A stretch of 64,000 bases of DNA from Nitrospira sp. (lineage in GTDB: Bacteria > Nitrospirota > Nitrospiria > Nitrospirales > Nitrospiraceae). Position numbers and translations under genes: made by a program. This document shows, one piece after another, positions 3,797 through 12,669 of the stretch. Location: positions 1-64,000 of the forward strand of contig VGXC01000007.1 of NCBI GenBank assembly GCA_016873495.1, in the 5' to 3' direction. Below the pieces are notes generated by a model. The model had not been told where the DNA came from, did not search any database, and saw only the letters and a list, made by a program, of their open reading frames with translations. Every line of letters begins with the position of its first letter. The first letter of the stretch is position 1.

Positions 3797-3866
3797 AAGG
3801 GGTCGGGATGAGCTCGCCTGGGTTTGACGGACATCGGGGGAAATGACCCATAGCCCCAAGAGGTGT

Positions 3867-3910: not shown

Positions 3911-3946
3911 TCAGACACATCACCGGACAGCGCGAGGAGGTTTGTC

Positions 3947-4945
3947 ATGCATGTGCTGCGATGCCTCTTGGTCGCCTCCGTGGCAGTTTCAACTCTGAGC
4001 TACGCGGCCGAACCGCAAACAGGTAGCCCCGGCCGGCCTTCCTCCACGACGAGACCCTCGTTTGAAATACCGGCGACCAAGATCGTCGCGGGAGCCGTGG
4101 GCCCCTTTGCGAGGCACTCGGACGGTTACGGTAATCCTGGTGCAAGCGGTCTTGGGTACATATCGGTGTTGACCCTTTCGACCGGGAAAGCCAAGAAGGA
4201 GCTCAACGCACCGATCAATAATATTCTTCCTTTTGACGAGGCGGAAGCGGGGATTGGCGACAAGGGCGGCAACGCCTATATCGGACAGATCAATTTGCTT
4301 CAGGCATCCTCATTTTCCGGCCCGAACGGGCTTGTGTGGGGCTATCACATTGCCGAGGCGGAGGCGCGGCAAGCCAAGACACTGAAACCCCTCTTCCATC
4401 AAGACACCCCTGATGGAGGCAAGATACCCGTGTATGACGCTGAGCCTCTGTTGAATGCCGGCCGGCGGCTCTTTGGCACCAGGGACAATCCGCGCTATCC
4501 CATGCTTCCCGGCTCCCACATCATCGCCGCCTACAAGGATCATACGGCCGAGGGACCGGCCACAGTGTGGTGCGTACTCGGAGTGGCCATTTCCTCCGAC
4601 CCCGCCACTAATGCCAACTTGTTTATGGAGGCATGCGATGAGATCAAAAAAGAAGCGCCTGTCCCGGAGGCATTTTTTGATGGAGTATTGAAAGACCTTG
4701 CGAAGAGCATGGTTCGCGTCGGTGAGAATCAACATGTTGTCTACAAAGAGATATTCCTCGGCTATAAATCCGAATTCGTCCCACCAGGCATGCTCGGAAC
4801 GGCATTGGCTGCAGTACCCTACATTGTGTTGGCAAAAACCGCCGTCCCCAAAGGAGGCCCGACCAAGCTCCTGAAGATGTCGATCGCTCAGTGGGAACAG
4901 GAGCTTGGCTTGACGCCGCTGCCTCCGTTGGAACAGCGCCGCTAG
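3947..4945 (+). CDS. Exported homologue of pyruvoyl-dependent histidine decarboxylase
   Basis: The 332-residue product aligns by eye over its whole length with the HdcA proenzyme of Gram-positive bacteria: NAYIGQINLLQASSFSG matches the self-cleavage region, with Ser121-Ser122 as the expected serinolysis site that makes the pyruvoyl group. PGSHIIAAYKDHTAE and NLFMEACDE (E228, equivalent to the catalytic Glu of HdcA) are also present, as are D97 and E100 of the substrate pocket, though the pocket Tyr is Phe96. Unlike the known cytosolic enzymes it begins with a signal peptide (about residues 1-21, ending SYAA). The ATG at 3947 is chosen because GAGGAGG precedes it and the signal peptide starts there. 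Known members convert histidine to histamine; the substrate here is unproven. Confidence 0.82.
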   Translation: MHVLRCLLVASVAVSTLSYAAEPQTGSPGRPSSTTRPSFEIPATKIVAGAVGPFARHSDGYGNPGASGLGYISVLTLSTGKAKKELNAPINNILPFDEAEAGIGDKGGNAYIGQINLLQASSFSGPNGLVWGYHIAEAEARQAKTLKPLFHQDTPDGGKIPVYDAEPLLNAGRRLFGTRDNPRYPMLPGSHIIAAYKDHTAEGPATVWCVLGVAISSDPATNANLFMEACDEIKKEAPVPEAFFDGVLKDLAKSMVRVGENQHVVYKEIFLGYKSEFVPPGMLGTALAAVPYIVLAKTAVPKGGPTKLLKMSIAQWEQELGLTPLPPLEQRR

Positions 4946-5803: not shown

Positions 5804-6903
5804 ATAGTCTCTCGCTCCACCTCCGATTCTCGTGGCGACGGTACCCCTGTTACTACCGGCCGATGATTTTGACCGTCACGGCGCTCGTGCTGATGGGCGG
5901 GTTTTGGTCCGCGACGCGCTATCCGCAGTTGCTGGCCAAGGCGGAGCATGTGGGGCAACCGCTGCCGAGCATGGCCTACAGCAGCGAAGTCCTCCACGTG
6001 ACGGAGAGCGCCCCAGTCTGGCAGCGTATCCTTGCCGGCGCCGCAAACTGGCTCGACAGCATGGCCCTCGGCATGACCTTTGGGGTGCTGTTTGGCGCCT
6101 TGTTGCATACGATCCTGCGGTACTACCCGCTGAACATCGGCAGGAATCTCTATCTGAATTCTCTGAAAGGCGCCTTGGTCGGGGTACCGATGGGTGTCTG
6201 CGCCAATTGCGCGGTGCCCGCGGCTTGCGGGGTGACCCGCGGACACGGACGTATCGAAGTGGCGCTGGGCTTTCTCTTCAGCTCGCCGAATTTCAACCCC
6301 GTGGTCGTGATGATGACGTTCATGGCCCTGCCCTGGACTATGAGCGTGACCAAGTACGTCCTCCTGCTCCTGGTCATTCTCATCGTCGCCCCGGCCTTGA
6401 TCGCATGGCTGGAACGCGGCAAGCCTTTCGATGTGTTCACGGCCGATGAGGAAGGAGCCTGTGCGATTCCGCTCGCGTCAACGGATTGTACGGAACCATT
6501 TTGGGCTGTGGCCCAAGAGTTGGCCCTGGACTACGCCAAAAATGCGCGGATGTTGGTGAAGCCTACCCTCGCCATAATGCTGCCGGCCAGTGTGTTGGCG
6601 GCTGCGATGCTGACGTTGATCCCCTGGACGACGCTGTTAGCCGAGGTCACGCCGGCGCGGCTGGCCTTGGTCGGCCTGGTTGCAGTAGCGATGCCCGTGC
6701 CCATCGCGCTGGACGTGATGTTTGCCGCGCAATTGCAGCAGCAAGGCCTGCCCTCCGGCTACGTGATGCTCTTCGCCATAACCCTGGGAACCTACAGCAT
6801 CATTCCCAGCCTGTACCTGTGGCGTGAGGTCTCGAAACTCCTGGCGATAATTCTGTTCCTGCTCTTTTGGACCCTGGGATGGATCACCGGCTTGCTGTTC
6901 TAA
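5800..6903 (+). CDS. Polytopic permease of the ArsP/DUF318 (PF03773-like) family
   Basis: A 367-residue membrane protein with about eight hydrophobic helices and the signature of this permease family between the first helices: GVPMGVCANCAVPAACG, with C134, C137 and C143. Related proteins export organoarsenicals or other thiol-reactive compounds; the substrate here is unknown. The start is a GTG at 5800 with GGAGG close upstream; an internal ATG at residue 22 (MILTV) is an alternative. The gene follows the PH-domain gene closely and precedes a flavoprotein gene on the same strand. Confidence 0.75.
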   Translation: MNSLSLHLRFSWRRYPCYYRPMILTVTALVLMGGFWSATRYPQLLAKAEHVGQPLPSMAYSSEVLHVTESAPVWQRILAGAANWLDSMALGMTFGVLFGALLHTILRYYPLNIGRNLYLNSLKGALVGVPMGVCANCAVPAACGVTRGHGRIEVALGFLFSSPNFNPVVVMMTFMALPWTMSVTKYVLLLLVILIVAPALIAWLERGKPFDVFTADEEGACAIPLASTDCTEPFWAVAQELALDYAKNARMLVKPTLAIMLPASVLAAAMLTLIPWTTLLAEVTPARLALVGLVAVAMPVPIALDVMFAAQLQQQGLPSGYVMLFAITLGTYSIIPSLYLWREVSKLLAIILFLLFWTLGWITGLLF

Positions 6904-6962
6904 CCGTGACCGCATGATCGCCTGCGAGATACTGCATACGACCATCTGAGAAAAGTTGACCT

Positions 6963-8195
6963 ATGGAAACGATCGCGACGCGCTGCTGTGTCGTCGGTGG
7001 AGGGCCGGCCGGGATGATGCTGGGCCTCCTGTTAGCCAGGGCCGGGGTGGATGTCGTCGTTCTGGAAAAGCATGCGGACTTCCTCCGGGATTTCCGCGGC
7101 GACACAATCCACCCGTCCACCCTCGAGCTGATGCATGAGCTCGGGGTCCTGGACGAGTTCCTGACGCTGCCGCACGAAAAGGCCCGCCTGCTGAAAGTCC
7201 AGGTCGGCGAGACGTCTATACCTCTCGCCGACTTCAGCCACTTGCCGGCCAAGTGCCAATTCATCGCCCTCATGCCCCAGTGGGACTTTCTGAACTTCCT
7301 CGCCAAGCAGGGCACCCGTTACCGAACCTTTCACCTGCGGCAGAGCTGCAACGCGACCGGCCTGATCGAGGAGTGGGACCGGGTCGTCGGGGTCCGCGCG
7401 ACGGGACCGGAGGGAGAGCTTGAAATCAGAGCGGATCTCGTCGTCGGGGCGGACGGGCGCCATTCCGTGGTCCGGGAGAAGGCCGGCTTTCACGTGCAGG
7501 AGCTCGGCGCGCCCATGGACGTCCTCTGGTTCCGCATCTCCCGGAAGGCCGGCGATCCGGAAGAGACGATGGGGCACTTCGACGCGGGACGCATCCTGAT
7601 CATGATCAACCGGGGCTCGCACTGGCAGTTCGGCTACATCATCATGAAGGGTTCGGCCGAGGAGAACCGCAAGCGCGGGCTCGACGCGTTCCGCGAGGAT
7701 GTGGCGAAACTCGCGCCCTTCTCCGCCGACCGGCGGGCCGAAATCCGTAACTGGGACGACGTCAAGCTGCTCACCGTCCAGGTGGACCGGCTGCTCCATT
7801 GGTACAAGCGCGGCCTGCTCTGCATCGGCGACGCGGCCCATGCCATGTCGCCGATCGGCGGCGTCGGCGTGAATCTCGCCGTCCAGGACGGCGTCGCCGC
7901 CGCCAACCTGCTGGCCAAACCCCTGCGCGAGGGCACGCTCACCACGGAACACCTGCGGCAAGTGCAGCAACGGCGGCTCCTGCCGACGAAGATTATCCAA
8001 GGCATGCAGGTGATGGCCCAGAAACAGATCGTCGCCAAGGTCCTGGGCGAGACAGGCCCCATGGAGCCAGCACTGCCGCTCAGACTGTTCGCCAGATTCC
8101 CCGTCCTGCGGCGCCTGCCCGCCCGCCTGATCGGCGTCGGCGTCAGACCAGAGCATGTAAAGACGCAGGCTATTCCCGTCGACGCCAGCCCATGA
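6963..8195 (+). CDS. FAD-dependent monooxygenase (UbiH/PheA-TfdB superfamily)
   Basis: A 410-residue class A flavoprotein. The N-terminal Rossmann motif is CCVVGGGPAG (residues 8-17) with an acidic end to the second strand (VVVLEKH). The middle motif DLVVGADGRHS and the ribityl-binding GD motif LLCIGDAAHAMSPIGGVGVN are complete. Such enzymes hydroxylate aromatic or quinone-like substrates or oxidise halogenated compounds using NAD(P)H and O2. No neighbour points to a pathway, so the substrate is open. The gene ends 25 bp before a hairpin terminator. Confidence 0.8.
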   Translation: METIATRCCVVGGGPAGMMLGLLLARAGVDVVVLEKHADFLRDFRGDTIHPSTLELMHELGVLDEFLTLPHEKARLLKVQVGETSIPLADFSHLPAKCQFIALMPQWDFLNFLAKQGTRYRTFHLRQSCNATGLIEEWDRVVGVRATGPEGELEIRADLVVGADGRHSVVREKAGFHVQELGAPMDVLWFRISRKAGDPEETMGHFDAGRILIMINRGSHWQFGYIIMKGSAEENRKRGLDAFREDVAKLAPFSADRRAEIRNWDDVKLLTVQVDRLLHWYKRGLLCIGDAAHAMSPIGGVGVNLAVQDGVAAANLLAKPLREGTLTTEHLRQVQQRRLLPTKIIQGMQVMAQKQIVAKVLGETGPMEPALPLRLFARFPVLRRLPARLIGVGVRPEHVKTQAIPVDASP

Positions 8196-8219
8196 CTCAC
8201 CGCGAGGGCAAGAACGAAA

Positions 8220-8243
8220 CAGGCCACCCCTGCGGGTGGCCTG
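8220..8243. terminator. Bidirectional hairpin terminator between convergent genes
   Basis: CAGGCCACCC (8220-8229) pairs perfectly with GGGTGGCCTG (8234-8243) around a 4-nt loop. On the minus strand it is followed by TTTCGTTCTT, so it most clearly serves the cytochrome gene; it can also stop transcription from the flavoprotein gene. Confidence 0.8.
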
Positions 8244-8274
8244 TTGGTGTTCCTGCGGCTTCTCTGACGTACGA

Positions 8275-9024
8275 TTACTTGACCGGAAGCTTGACGCTGA
8301 CGGCGCCGCCCAAGTCCCCTTCCTTGGCCCCTTCCTTCTTGTAGCCGGAGACGTCGGTCTCGCCCTTGGGTTCCCCGTGACAGCCCAGGCAGCCTTTCCC
8401 GTAATAGAGCGGGAGCAGCACCCGAACGGCCTTCCCGCCATCGACGGTTTCATTGAGAATTTTGTCGCCCTGCCTGGGATAGGAGGCATCGGAAAATTTC
8501 TTGAGGATGCCGGCCTCGAAGTCATCGGCCTTGTTCTTGGGGTTCCGCAGCAGGGAGTCCTGCGTGGTCTGTTTGAGGTAAATGCCGGTCTTGGCGCTGA
8601 ACTCGGCGGCCGCCTGGGTGCCGAAGTGCGCCGGCGTAAAGCCCTTGTAGGCAACGCCGGGGCGGTTGATGTTCGCCTGATTGTCGGCGACGGTCTTCTT
8701 GGAGGCCGCGACCAATTCCGGCAGCAACCCCTTCGCCGCCTCCGGCACGCCGGCCGCCTTCAGGTTCGCCAGGTCCACGCCGGACCGGGCCTTGAACTTC
8801 TCGGTCAACTGCTTCTCGAAGACCTCGGGCGTGAAGCCCTTGTCCCCCTTGCCGGCATCGTTGATGAGCGGCTGGTTGGCCCCGACCGTGCCCCGACCGG
8901 CATCCAGCAGGATGGCCAGCAGGCGCCCCGTCTCGACCAGGTCCTGGTTCGCCAGCACGGGCGCCGGAGTGATGCCGAGGAAGAGGGCAGAGAGGGCGAG
9001 CGAGACGACGATGCTTCTGCTCAT
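8275..9024 (-). CDS. Periplasmic c-type haem protein with DUF3365 domain
   Basis: The 249-residue product has a signal peptide (residues 1-26, ending PVLA-N) and one haem-c attachment motif, C212-LG-C215-H216, near the C-terminus. This is the layout of DUF3365 proteins, single-haem sensors or electron carriers often found near respiratory genes. The body contains two similar helical segments with GFTPEVFEKQ and GFTPAHFGTQ, suggesting an internal duplication. It is monocistronic, with the terminator at 8220-8243. The natural partner is unknown; a role in signalling or electron transfer is an inference. Confidence 0.8.
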   Translation of the reverse strand: MSRSIVVSLALSALFLGITPAPVLANQDLVETGRLLAILLDAGRGTVGANQPLINDAGKGDKGFTPEVFEKQLTEKFKARSGVDLANLKAAGVPEAAKGLLPELVAASKKTVADNQANINRPGVAYKGFTPAHFGTQAAAEFSAKTGIYLKQTTQDSLLRNPKNKADDFEAGILKKFSDASYPRQGDKILNETVDGGKAVRVLLPLYYGKGCLGCHGEPKGETDVSGYKKEGAKEGDLGGAVSVKLPVK

Positions 9025-9233
9025 CGCGACCTCCTGGAGAATAGAGGGTGAGAAACGAGGGCTCTAGGGATGGAGATTGAGAGCCCGAGGCGATGCGGTC
9101 AGTATAGCTCCCGCCGGACAATGACGCCAGCTATTTCCTGGCGCATGGGTCCCGATATGGAGGGCACCGTCCGGAACCGATTTGCGCCGGACGCTGTGCC
9201 TTCCCGGAACTCCGCCATGAACGGGGATCGAGC

Positions 9234-9986
9234 CTAGCGGCCGGACGAAACCGGCAGGCGCGCGGTGAGGATGGCGCTCATCGGGTTTTCGATCAGGTCG
9301 CGCCAGTAGCCCGGGCCGAATTTGGCCAGGCCTTCGGGGGAGACTTCAAACGGGTGCCACCGGAGGTCGGCGAACCCGGCCGACCGGACCGCCTCATCGA
9401 ACACCGCCCTGGCCCAATGCCGGTACTCGATGGAGAAGGGCGGGTTCGTATGCACGTCCGCATGGACCAGCCGCCAGTCTTTATCCGACGCCACGAGTCG
9501 GTAGGTGAAGCCATACCGTTCCGTATCGCCCCTGCCCATCACATAGTCCGGCTCAGGCAGGAGGGCCATCAACAGACCGCCCGGCTTGAGGTTGGCCGCG
9601 ATATTCCGGCACATCCGACTCATAGTCTCCGGGGTCTCCGCGTAATGGAGCAGGTAGGTCGCCGTCGCCAGGTCGAACGAGCCCACCTGCGGCAGATCGG
9701 CAACGTCCGCGACCCGGTATTCGATGCCGAGGGGGGCTCTGGCCTCCGCGTCGCGGGCCGCGGCGACCATGGTTTCCGACACATCCACCCCGACGACCCT
9801 GGCCGCCCCCCATTGCGTGAACAGACGGGAGTAGTAGCCGGTTCCGCAAGCCAGGTCCAGGACGCTCCGCCACTCGATCCGCCCGGCCAGAAGTTTCCGC
9901 ACGCTCGGCACTTCCGCGTAGGTGGGAACCGGCGTGTCCTTCCACCCGACATACTTCGCCCCGATGGCATCGTACTGTGCGCTCAT
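9234..9986 (-). CDS. Class I SAM-dependent methyltransferase
   Basis: A 250-residue protein with the SAM-binding glycine motif VLDLACGTG (residues 42-50), the acidic end of strand 2 (GVDVSETMV), and motif IV (SFDLATATYLLHYAETPE). The ATG at 9984-9986 is chosen because it opens the conserved N-terminal helix (MSAQYDAIGAKY). Family members of this type methylate small molecules; the target is unknown. It diverges from the VIT-family gene and shares its short upstream region. Confidence 0.8.
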   Translation of the reverse strand: MSAQYDAIGAKYVGWKDTPVPTYAEVPSVRKLLAGRIEWRSVLDLACGTGYYSRLFTQWGAARVVGVDVSETMVAAARDAEARAPLGIEYRVADVADLPQVGSFDLATATYLLHYAETPETMSRMCRNIAANLKPGGLLMALLPEPDYVMGRGDTERYGFTYRLVASDKDWRLVHADVHTNPPFSIEYRHWARAVFDEAVRSAGFADLRWHPFEVSPEGLAKFGPGYWRDLIENPMSAILTARLPVSSGR

Positions 9987-10057
9987 GACCCGGCATGATA
10001 CCGGCCCCGCCCGTTCAGCACAACCGCCGCCCGGCGTACGCCGGCGCCGATCCCTGC

Positions 10058-10063
10058 TATAAT
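10058..10063 (+). promoter_or_regulatory. Extended -10 promoter element just before the ferritin-like/VIT gene
   Basis: TGCTATAAT gives a perfect -10 with an extended TGN motif. The predicted transcript would begin within a few bases of the ATG at 10071, so the message would be leaderless or nearly so. No good -35 is visible. Confidence 0.55.
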
Positions 10064-10070
10064 CCCACCC

Positions 10071-11033
10071 ATGTCCTCGGCCTCCCAGCATGACCCCGAA
10101 CTCGCCCGCACGCTCATCCTGGATGAATTGTTCGACTTGTCGCTGTACAAGGCCCTCCGCGGGGTCACCAAGCCGGACACGCGGCACGTGCTGGACGAGC
10201 TGATCGTCGTCGAAGCCGGGCATCTGGCCTTCTGGCAGCAATTCTTCGACAGCCGGCTGGACCGCCTCGACGTCGGGCGGCGCATCAAACTGCAACTAAT
10301 CATTCTCGTCTGCCGCCTATTCGGCGAGACCGGCGTGCACCTGGCCCTGGAAGCGATCGAGGTCTATGGGGTCAGGAAGTACCTGTCCCTGTGGCGCAGC
10401 TACAAGGGCCAGCCGTTAGGGAAGGCGCTCGAGGGAATTTTACGAGACGAGCTCCAGCACGAGGATGTCCTGGTCACGCGGCTGACTGAGCGAAAGATCA
10501 ACCCGGAGCGGATCAGGAACATTTTTCTGGGGCTGAACGACGGGCTGGTGGAGATTCTTGGGGCCGTCAGCGGCTTCTTCGGGGCCTTCGGGAACCCGGT
10601 CATGGTCTTGATGGCGGCCAGCACGACGGCCGCCGCCGGATCGCTTTCCATGGCCGCCGGCGCCTACGCCGCCATCAGCTCGGAGCGGGAAGTGCAGGCA
10701 ACGGAGGCGGCCAAGAAGGAGTTCCTGGGAGACAAGAGCGGGGGAGCGAATCTGCCGGACCGGCCGCTCGGCTCGGCCCTGGTGGTGGGCGCCAGTTACT
10801 TTGTCGGAGCCATGGTCCCCGTCCTGCCGGTCCTGTTCGGCGCGAAGAGCGCGGTCGTCTCAATGGTCGCGGCCGGCAGCGTGGCCATTCTGGTGTCCAC
10901 CCTGCTTGCCTTCCTGTCCGGCATGGACATCAAGCGACGCATCCTGCTGAACCTGGCGATTATCGCCCTGGCCGTCAGCGTCACCTACCTGATCGGGATG
11001 GTGGCCAACCAGCTCTGGGGGATTTCGGTCTAA
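10071..11033 (+). CDS. Ferritin-like domain fused to a VIT-type iron/manganese transporter
   Basis: Residues 1-140 form a ferritin-like four-helix domain with carboxylate/His pairs (LDELIVVEAGHLAFWQQF and LRDELQHEDVLV). Residues 145-320 are a five-helix VIT1/CCC1 domain (GLNDGLVEILGAVSGFFG, SLSMAAGAYAAISSERE). This is the arrangement of MbfA-like membrane ferritins, which bind Fe(II) and export it, protecting against iron and peroxide stress. No ribosome-binding site precedes the ATG, consistent with the near-leaderless promoter at 10058. The 3' end overlaps the convergent radical SAM gene. Confidence 0.85.
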   Translation: MSSASQHDPELARTLILDELFDLSLYKALRGVTKPDTRHVLDELIVVEAGHLAFWQQFFDSRLDRLDVGRRIKLQLIILVCRLFGETGVHLALEAIEVYGVRKYLSLWRSYKGQPLGKALEGILRDELQHEDVLVTRLTERKINPERIRNIFLGLNDGLVEILGAVSGFFGAFGNPVMVLMAASTTAAAGSLSMAAGAYAAISSEREVQATEAAKKEFLGDKSGGANLPDRPLGSALVVGASYFVGAMVPVLPVLFGAKSAVVSMVAAGSVAILVSTLLAFLSGMDIKRRILLNLAIIALAVSVTYLIGMVANQLWGISV

Positions 11034-12669
11034 GTAGCGAACCGACGCCATCGGCAGTTCCCGCGAGCCTTCCGCCTCCTGCTGAATACGAAGCCGTTCG
11101 GCCCTCGATTCCTGCAGCACCTTGTCCAAACACCTCGTCGGTGAGCTGGGTGAAGTTGGCCGCCTGGTCCTTCATGGCGCCATGCTCGACGGCGCGCGAC
11201 AAGACCTCGGCCTTGGTCGCTCCCTTCTTCTGCCCGAGGAACGGCTTGACGATGAGATAGACCACGTCGCGCACCGGCATAAAGCGGAGGAACCGGCGGA
11301 GCAGCCGGAAGGTTTGCACCGGATAGTGCAGCACTTTGTAGACGAACAGCTTGCGCAACCCGGCCTGGCGCACGGCATTGATCACCGGACCGGGCAGGCA
11401 GGTGGGATCGATCTCCGAACACTTGAAATACTTGTACCAGTCCGTCTGTTCGCTGACCAGACCCCGCTTCACATACTCCTGCCAGAGCGGCGTGCCACGA
11501 TAAACGCAGAGCCGGTTGAACCCGAAGGTGTCCAAGGGGAGCTTCGCCGCCAGGTCGAAGGTGGCCTGCATGTCCTCCACCGTCTCGTCCGGGTTGCCGA
11601 CCGTGAAGAACCCGTGCACGATCTCGATGCCCGCCTGTTTGGCGTTGACCACCGCGGTCTCCACCTCTTTGAGCGTCTGTTCCTTTTTCAGCCGATCCAG
11701 AATCTTCTGGCTCCCGCTTTCGACGCCGAACATGAGGGTGCGGCAATGGGCCTTGGCCATGACCGGGAACAGGTGCTGGGCCACCGAATCCACCCGCCCC
11801 TCGCAGCCCCACTGGATGGTGATGCCGTTGTCCACGACGCCTTTGCAGATCGCCTCGATGCGCTTGGGCTGCAACAGGAAATGGTCGTCCACGAAATAGA
11901 CCGACCCGTAGCCCGATTCCTGGAGATGCTTGAATTCTTCCGTGACGTGCTGCGGGCTCCGGGAGCGCCATTTGCCCTCGTTGAAGATCGGAATGTCGCA
12001 GAACACGCAGGGCCAGGGGCAGCCCCGAGACGTCTGCATGGTCGTGAACCGCTCCATCGACAGCACCGCCGGGACATCCAAGGGCATGGACTCGACGAAG
12101 TCCAGCTCCAGACTCTCCCGGTCCGGAAAGGGCCATTGGTCGAGGTTCCGCTCCATGGTCCGATTGGCGTTGCTGACGACCCGGCCGTCCCTGGCCCAGG
12201 TGAGCCCGCCGACGTCCTGCGGATCGTCCAGGCGTTCGAGGAGATCGAGGATGAGCTGCTCGCCGTCGCCGCGGCACACGAAGTCCACTTCGGGACATTG
12301 CAGTTTGACGAGCGAGGCGTTGAGGCTGGCGAACACGCCGCCGAAGGCCAGCCTCACCTTTTGGTTGGCCGCCCGAATCTGGCGCGCGAGGATCTTGGCA
12401 TAGGGATAGCTGGTCGTGCTGAGAAAACTCAGGCCGATGAAGGCCGGCTGTCGTGCCTTGATGGCCTCGAGGATCACGTCGTTCGGCGTGTCCGGATTGG
12501 CCTGGTCGAACATCACGCATTCATGGCCGGCTCGTTTGAGCACCGAGGACAGCGACATGATGCCGATGGGGGGAAACCCCATGACCCGGATACGTCCGTT
12601 CTTGGCGCGGGTTTTAGCCGGCAAGGCGTAAAACTGGGGATCGCGGACGTGGATCAGGAATACCAACAT
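10981..12669 (-). CDS. B12-binding-domain radical SAM protein, probable 3' frameshift
   Basis: Residues 1-165 form a cobalamin-binding-like domain (PPIGIMSLSSVLKRAGHE..., FIGLSFLSTTSYPYAK), followed by the radical SAM core with C217-x3-C221-x2-C224 (RGCPWPCVFCDI) and a C-terminal helical region. Such proteins methylate or rearrange lipids and other substrates; this one is not assignable further. The last ~45 in-frame residues are Gly/Ser/Arg-rich and overlap the convergent gene by 53 bp. In another frame from about 11130 the sequence continues DKVLQESRAERLRIQQEAE, which looks more natural and implies an extra base at 11125-11126. Confidence 0.75.
   Translation of the reverse strand: MLVFLIHVRDPQFYALPAKTRAKNGRIRVMGFPPIGIMSLSSVLKRAGHECVMFDQANPDTPNDVILEAIKARQPAFIGLSFLSTTSYPYAKILARQIRAANQKVRLAFGGVFASLNASLVKLQCPEVDFVCRGDGEQLILDLLERLDDPQDVGGLTWARDGRVVSNANRTMERNLDQWPFPDRESLELDFVESMPLDVPAVLSMERFTTMQTSRGCPWPCVFCDIPIFNEGKWRSRSPQHVTEEFKHLQESGYGSVYFVDDHFLLQPKRIEAICKGVVDNGITIQWGCEGRVDSVAQHLFPVMAKAHCRTLMFGVESGSQKILDRLKKEQTLKEVETAVVNAKQAGIEIVHGFFTVGNPDETVEDMQATFDLAAKLPLDTFGFNRLCVYRGTPLWQEYVKRGLVSEQTDWYKYFKCSEIDPTCLPGPVINAVRQAGLRKLFVYKVLHYPVQTFRLLRRFLRFMPVRDVVYLIVKPFLGQKKGATKAEVLSRAVEHGAMKDQAANFTQLTDEVFGQGAAGIEGRTASYSAGGGRLAGTADGVGSLLRPKSPRAGWPPSRSGR

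Follow-up and report, generated by a model that had tools for sequence, protein, structure and literature searches.

A probably exported pyruvoyl decarboxylase-family protein in a Nitrospira-type genome and in methane-oxidizing bacteria

What might a pyruvoyl-dependent decarboxylase be doing outside the cytoplasm? Bacterial amino-acid decarboxylases are generally seen as cytosolic and antiporter-coupled, an arrangement that generates proton-motive force and raises internal pH. The window analyzed here, a 64,000-nucleotide stretch of a Nitrospira sp. genome (contig VGXC01000007.1), carries a gene whose product the initial annotation took for an apparently secreted homologue of the pyruvoyl-dependent histidine decarboxylase (HDC) HdcA, and an exported decarboxylase with no antiporter would run counter to the usual reading of these enzymes. 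We put the probability that this is an exported, self-processing pyruvoyl amino-acid decarboxylase at roughly three in four, judging from the sequence and a structural model. The relevant features are collected in Table 1.

Table 1. Features of the decarboxylase-family gene and its product, with positions in the window
Feature	Position	Strand	Details
Gene for a putative exported pyruvoyl decarboxylase-family protein	3947..4945	+	332 aa + stop; PF02329, TIGR00541 and PDB HdcA matches
Ribosome-binding site AGGAGG	3935..3940	+	6-base spacer to ATG 3947; read in the sequence
Predicted Sec-type signal peptide, residues 1-20 (MHVLRCLLVASVAVSTLSYA)	3947..4006	+	h-region hydropathy 2.8; obligate extension
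Pro/Ser/Thr-rich linker, residues 22-42	4010..4072	+	Translation; pLDDT about 61-72 over the first 20 residues
HDC (PF02329) catalytic domain, residues 43-324	4073..4918	+	Pfam match; fold like 1pya
Substrate-pocket segment F96, D97, E98, A99, E100	4232..4246	+	Alignment to HdcA Tyr62, Asp63, Glu66
Predicted serinolysis site Ser121-Ser122 (HdcA Ser81-Ser82)	4307..4312	+	Ser122 would become pyruvoyl
Cys209, proposed disulfide partner, hairpin strand 1	4571..4573	+	7/7 clade; model residue 188, strand 184-195
Glu228, predicted catalytic acid (HdcA Glu197)	4628..4630	+	E in 7/7 clade, 74/74 others
Ala229, replacing otherwise invariant Asp198	4631..4633	+	A/L in 7/7 clade, D in 74/74 others
Cys230, proposed disulfide partner, hairpin strand 2	4634..4636	+	7/7 clade; model residue 209, strand 203-212

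The family assignment is straightforward. A Pfam search matches the protein to PF02329 far beyond chance (E 2.9e-60; 204.3 bits against a gathering cut-off of 25 bits), and homology to HdcA, as first proposed, is upheld by an NCBIfam search (TIGR00541, pyruvoyl histidine decarboxylase; E 7.4e-55) and by a PDB search that returned the HdcA chains of Lactobacillus 30a at E 1.1e-23 and 4.8e-6. The name “histidine decarboxylase” cannot simply be carried over: at 186.2 bits the protein falls short of the 346.65 bits curated as the TIGR00541 equivalog cut-off, and the equivalents of HdcA Tyr62 and Asp198 are lost. Because both the equivalog score and Tyr62 are wanting, we do not file the protein as an HDC. 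PF02329 was the sole Pfam family reported at E 0.01, with no match to the profile of the pyruvoyl arginine decarboxylase PvlArgDC (1N2M/2QQD), which shares the fold core and self-cleavage chemistry but is shorter, about 20% identical, and not in the Pfam family matched. The window protein is a PF02329 member and very probably works like a pyruvoyl decarboxylase.

The predicted structure agrees with this. An AlphaFold2 monomer model built on a 56-sequence alignment (pLDDT 93.2, pTM 0.90) superposes on the Lactobacillus HdcA alpha chain 1pya_B with Z 23.3 and an rmsd of 1.4 Å over 207 residues, and so reproduces the chain that bears the counterparts of Ser122 and Glu228; pyruvoyl arginine decarboxylase comes next in the fold comparison (Z 14, rmsd 2.3-2.5). 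Rows for influenza haemagglutinin in the fold search, with low probability and TM-scores under 0.2, were set aside as noise.

Where does the protein sit within its family? A genome scan for PF02329 gave 78 loci across many phyla, and further searches by class and order brought in four more, all from the order of Methylococcus. In a maximum-likelihood tree of 57 taxa, the window protein, on a long branch, falls in a seven-member clade with a Methylocystis plasmid copy, Methylococcus capsulatus, and four further genomes of the Methylococcus order (support 99/96; monophyletic in 100% of bootstrap trees). This small clade, shared with methane-oxidizing bacteria, appears to be previously undescribed. 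Its other members (L010, L002, and L102-L105) resemble the window protein in having a signal peptide, Phe at position 62 of HdcA, no Asp198, a C209/C230 pair, and neither C152 nor C228; they differ in carrying Thr for Ile59, in their gene neighbours, and in lacking a GIGDKG insertion after Glu100 that is found in the window protein only. The residue counts given here compare, by alignment, these seven proteins with 74 other family members.

Would such a protein still be a working enzyme? The initial annotation stated that the self-cleavage serines, the catalytic Glu228, and the pocket acids D97 and E100 are retained and that the pocket Tyr has become Phe96, and alignment to HdcA confirms every one of these points (F96=Y62, D97=D63, E100=E66, S121/S122=S81/S82, E228=E197); Lys197 is also kept. 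In HdcA, Ser81/82 is the cleavage pair and Tyr62/Asp63 are ligand-binding (PMC8465708). Both serines are present in all seven clade members, and in 73 (S121) and 74 (S122) of the 74 others. Compared with HdcA of Lactobacillus 30a / L. saerimneri (1PYA, 1HQ6, 1IBT; TIGR00541), the window protein has the same fold, and the whole clade keeps the HdcA-position residues Asp63, Glu66, Ser81, Ser82, Phe83, Lys155, and Glu197. It differs from HdcA in its signal peptide, in Phe for Tyr62 and Ala for Asp198, in its sub-equivalog score, in the loss of C152/C228 and gain of a new Cys pair, and in neighbours that include no antiporter, HdcB, or hisS.

The pocket is more equivocal. Asp63 and Glu66 touch the imidazole in HdcA; all seven clade members keep both, as do 74/74 (Asp63) and 73/74 (Glu66) of the others. 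The Tyr62 position, however, is F in 7/7 of the clade and Y in 71/74 of the others, and further changes include I59T (6/7) and F195I (5/7). Asp53-Asp198 forms the pH bridge of HdcA, with Asp198 part of its pH switch (PMC8465708). With the catalytic residues kept and Tyr62 and Asp198 swapped, catalysis is probably intact across the clade, while the fit of the substrate and the response to pH have probably changed; given these replacements and a score well under the HDC equivalog cut-off, function could have drifted. For the same reasons (score, Y62F, D198A) we go no further than calling L-histidine a plausible substrate, at perhaps even odds.

The alternative that we take most seriously, while still placing it clearly below even odds, is an exported pyruvoyl decarboxylase that acts on an amino acid other than histidine, its pocket remodeled by Y62F, D198A/L, I59T, and F195I. 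These changes are clade-specific and largely fixed against unchanged catalytic residues, the score falls under the HDC equivalog, and specificity seems to vary within PF02329, since its Rhizobium members do without Glu66; the retention of Asp63 and Glu66 in 7/7 clade members speaks against it. The Rhizobium plasmid proteins themselves (L004 5956-6948, L005 5956-6948, and L007 4956-5948) keep Ser82 and Glu197 but have Tyr62 replaced by Gly, Glu66 by Arg, and Ser81 by Thr, and are probably a divergent, non-histidine branch.

Downstream of the gene lie a bacterial-PH-domain protein and an ArsP_1-type permease (Pfam), and no amino-acid (histidine/histamine) antiporter adjoins it; the initial annotation had noted no transporter next to the gene. 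Maturation of S. thermophilus HdcA requires HdcB according to an account in PMC4410942 that cites Trip 2011. HdcB genes were seen only at Firmicutes, Aeriscardovia, and phage loci, so the Gram-negative members have no linked maturase; a search of the window's own genome, run without a positive control, gave no HdcB match, and a search of that genome for aspartate 4-decarboxylase gave only generic aminotransferases, below the cut-off. The nearest cytosolic part of PF02329, at about 42-48% identity to the window protein, comprises homologues from Chlamydiae CG10_35_9 (L009), Acidobacteria (L016), Acidimicrobiaceae (L017/L018), and Bacteroides (L030). Unlike the window protein, these have no signal peptide and lie beside GadC-like or other APC antiporters, often with an arginine decarboxylase adjoining. 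Antiporter-linked homologues of this kind were surveyed in PMC8465708, whose search demanded an adjacent transporter.

A different kind of neighbour is seen in Planctomycetota. At L008, the gene for a signal-bearing PF02329 homologue precedes, by about 79 bp, one for a 566-aa aspartate 4-decarboxylase (NF006755, 709 bits). The latter protein starts with MNRRDFGAVSLG, which resembles a twin-arginine signal, so that two exported amino-acid decarboxylases apparently stand side by side. The locus (6900-11620) is operon-like, running from an MFS sugar porter through the HDC homologue and the aspartate 4-decarboxylase to a C45 hydrolase with a signal-like N-terminus. PF02329 occurs in 1/392 planctomycete genomes, and no further exported pair was found among them.

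Could the protein be a periplasmic acid-stress device, one that takes up protons and sets base free in the periplasm instead of supplying an antiporter? This would be compatible with an exported decarboxylase, and the idea draws on the cytosolic relatives, which sit in antiporter/arginine-decarboxylase clusters of the acid-resistance type, and on the second exported decarboxylase coupled to the L008 copy. Nothing in the window links the gene to acid stress, however, and Asp198 of the HdcA pH switch (PMC8465708) is lost; we consider this role unlikely.

The distribution of the gene is patchy. PF02329 was found in 1/296 genomes of the window's phylum and 0/3 congeners, which points to horizontal transfer, and a signal-peptide label mapped on the PF02329 tree requires at least four changes. 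We rejected a viral or phage origin, the IMG/VR and phage relatives all being of Firmicutes type. We recognized no neighbour common to the whole clade. As the clade-mates are methanotrophs, we also looked for a methane/ammonia monooxygenase link; the PF02461 search was unmatched even in Methylococcus and hence uninformative.

A singleton in a phylum-wide sample, with no operon partner, a long branch, and heterogeneous lower-GC surroundings, might simply be a dead or decaying relative kept by chance after horizontal transfer. We think this improbable: all catalytic and cleavage residues are intact in seven diverged sequences, dN/dS among the clade-mates is 0.09-0.47, indicating purifying selection, and the window gene has an intact ORF and a strong ribosome site. 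An active, exported pyruvoyl decarboxylase is probably the better description. Upstream, 1104-1707 holds a PIN-domain (VapC-like) toxin gene with a likely antitoxin on the minus strand; the lower GC content (0.49-0.57) of the tract in which they lie is consistent with acquired DNA. Near the toxin gene is a 39-bp direct repeat (GGGTACGGAGGATCGGATCGCCCCCCACCCGCTCCTGCC), its copies 97% identical and 980 bp apart (843-881 and 1823-1861).

Does the protein leave the cytoplasm? Three things led us to call a signal peptide: hydropathy, presence throughout the clade, and cysteine content. The N-terminus reads MHVLRCLLVASVAVSTLSYA followed by AEPQTG, with small residues at -3/-1 and a likely cut after Ala20 or Ala21, and its best 9-residue Kyte-Doolittle mean is 2.8. 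For cytosolic homologues, taken from their best-supported starts, this mean does not exceed about 1.7, except in Rhizobium (2.1), where the stretch lies inside the conserved domain. In-frame starts occur solely at or before residue 12 and none from there to the domain; the extension is therefore obligatory, and a mis-called start was ruled out. All seven clade members have a hydrophobic N-terminus, weakest in Methylocystis (h-region 1.8), whereas most of the 80-odd relatives gathered begin at the domain without one.

The cysteines, we would argue, are the strongest new evidence for export. An oxidizing compartment selects for the loss of free thiols and for facing cysteine pairs. The equivalent of HdcA C152 is lost in 7/7 of the clade and kept in 73/74 of the others, that of C228 lost in 7/7 and kept in 71/74; the clade also lacks the cysteines that nearer relatives commonly have at residues 285 and 289 (numbering of the window protein). 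C209 and C230, by contrast, occur together throughout the clade and in 1/74 of the others (L013, which has eight cysteines). They are the only domain cysteines in the window protein and three clade-mates, the remaining three having one more (position 58), so that each domain in the clade has 2-3 cysteines, where 40 other proteins from outside the HDC-grade branch average 7.5. In the model, the two lie on adjacent strands of one hairpin in near-opposite register, from which we read their proximity, and may form a disulfide.

Signal peptide and cysteine swap are two independent lines of support, and the protein probably works outside the cytoplasm; the “clear” signal peptide of the initial annotation stands, and its non-cytosolic location is supported. 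That the enzyme is cytosolic after all, its apparent signal peptide being due to a wrongly assigned start or to an N-terminal tail that stays unprocessed, could appeal to most PF02329 proteins, which begin at the domain and look cytosolic, and to an upstream in-frame GTG at 3863 that would bury the hydrophobic stretch, but we find it very improbable given the AGGAGG before ATG 3947, the lack of any in-frame start from residue 12 to the domain, the hydrophobic N-terminus of all seven clade members, and a loss of free cysteines with gain of a pair that is typical of exported proteins.

Against the three refuting conditions of the initial annotation, each checked at least approximately, stand the strong profile match, a model that reproduces the HdcA alpha chain with Ser122 and Glu228, and localization evidence in favour of export. 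The picture of an unusual exported enzyme is supported, but it is not a one-off: its traits are shared across the clade, and other PF02329 branches bear signals separately. Five HDC-grade homologues from Bacteroidales, Thiodictyon, Desulfuromonadales, and other proteobacterial MAGs (L023, L025, L035, L045, and L078) have the PF02329 domain, an N-terminal signal peptide, and the catalytic residues. They differ from the window protein in keeping the Tyr62, Asp198, C152, and C228 equivalents and form a separate branch of the tree. Their domains score 394-425 bits, above the 346.65-bit cut-off, so signal-bearing proteins that pass NCBI's histidine decarboxylase rule do exist.

How would an exported decarboxylase of this kind work? 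From the residues, fold, and N-terminus, we infer export, disulfide, cleavage, activity, substrate, and role as follows. The precursor would leave the cytoplasm unfolded via Sec and, once outside, fold, form one C209-C230 disulfide, and assemble like HdcA. Self-cleavage between Ser121 and Ser122 would separate a beta chain of about residues 21-121 from an alpha chain (122-332); the first residue of the latter, to judge from the invariant motif and the fold, would become the pyruvoyl group. This group would form a Schiff base with the amino acid, CO2 would be lost, and Glu228 would serve as proton donor. Because Asp97 and Glu100 are kept, the likeliest substrate would be L-histidine or another cationic amino acid, with Phe96 and Ala229 suggesting a changed substrate fit or pH response. 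The outcome would be an amine made and a proton consumed outside the cytoplasm, with no antiporter and no proton-motive force. Since the cofactor is formed from the protein's own chain, no cytoplasmic loading is needed, and an enzyme of this type lends itself to export through Sec. The same cofactor rule would cover the L008 partner, which uses PLP and bears a Tat signal: enzymes that depend on PLP would be exported already folded.

An exported decarboxylase neither makes proton-motive force nor raises internal pH, and so must serve some other purpose; local amine release, periplasmic pH control, and nitrogen or carbon salvage are candidates. Searches that require a transporter (e.g., PMC8465708) would miss such enzymes, and bacterial amine production may in consequence be under-counted. 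We found no paper on a periplasmic, secreted, or extracellular decarboxylase, nor any joining Nitrospira with a pyruvoyl HDC, in a literature search that was thin on subscription journals. A broader proposal, which we hold tentatively and at somewhat less than even odds, is that methanotrophs and this Nitrospira-like bacterium share a lineage of pyruvoyl decarboxylases, not described before, that are periplasmic and disulfide-bonded and make an amine outside the cytoplasm, either from histidine and some further substrate or from another substrate altogether. If so, this lineage, the HDC-grade relatives with signal peptides, and the L008 pair would all belong to a broader physiology in which amino acids are decarboxylated outside the cytoplasm. 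As one clade-mate, Methylococcus capsulatus, is culturable, the idea is directly testable.

Some other contexts of PF02329 genes deserve mention. Roseobacter-type cytosolic homologues (L003, L026, L031, L033, L036-L038, L041, and L044) adjoin a very long AAA/transcriptional-activator-like protein (cluster C6), many of them also a second protein (C9); no antiporter was detected at these loci, which represent a different, unstudied context. A phospholipase-B/C45-like hydrolase lies near PF02329 genes at three unrelated loci (L022 9676-11016, L078 9161-10804, and L008 10211-11620), two of which have signal-bearing homologues. Finally, the deep-branching proteins of L077 (976-2684) and L079 (6042-7831), from Parcubacteria and an Actinomycetota MAG, have an upstream neighbour family in common (cluster C96), which suggests another module.
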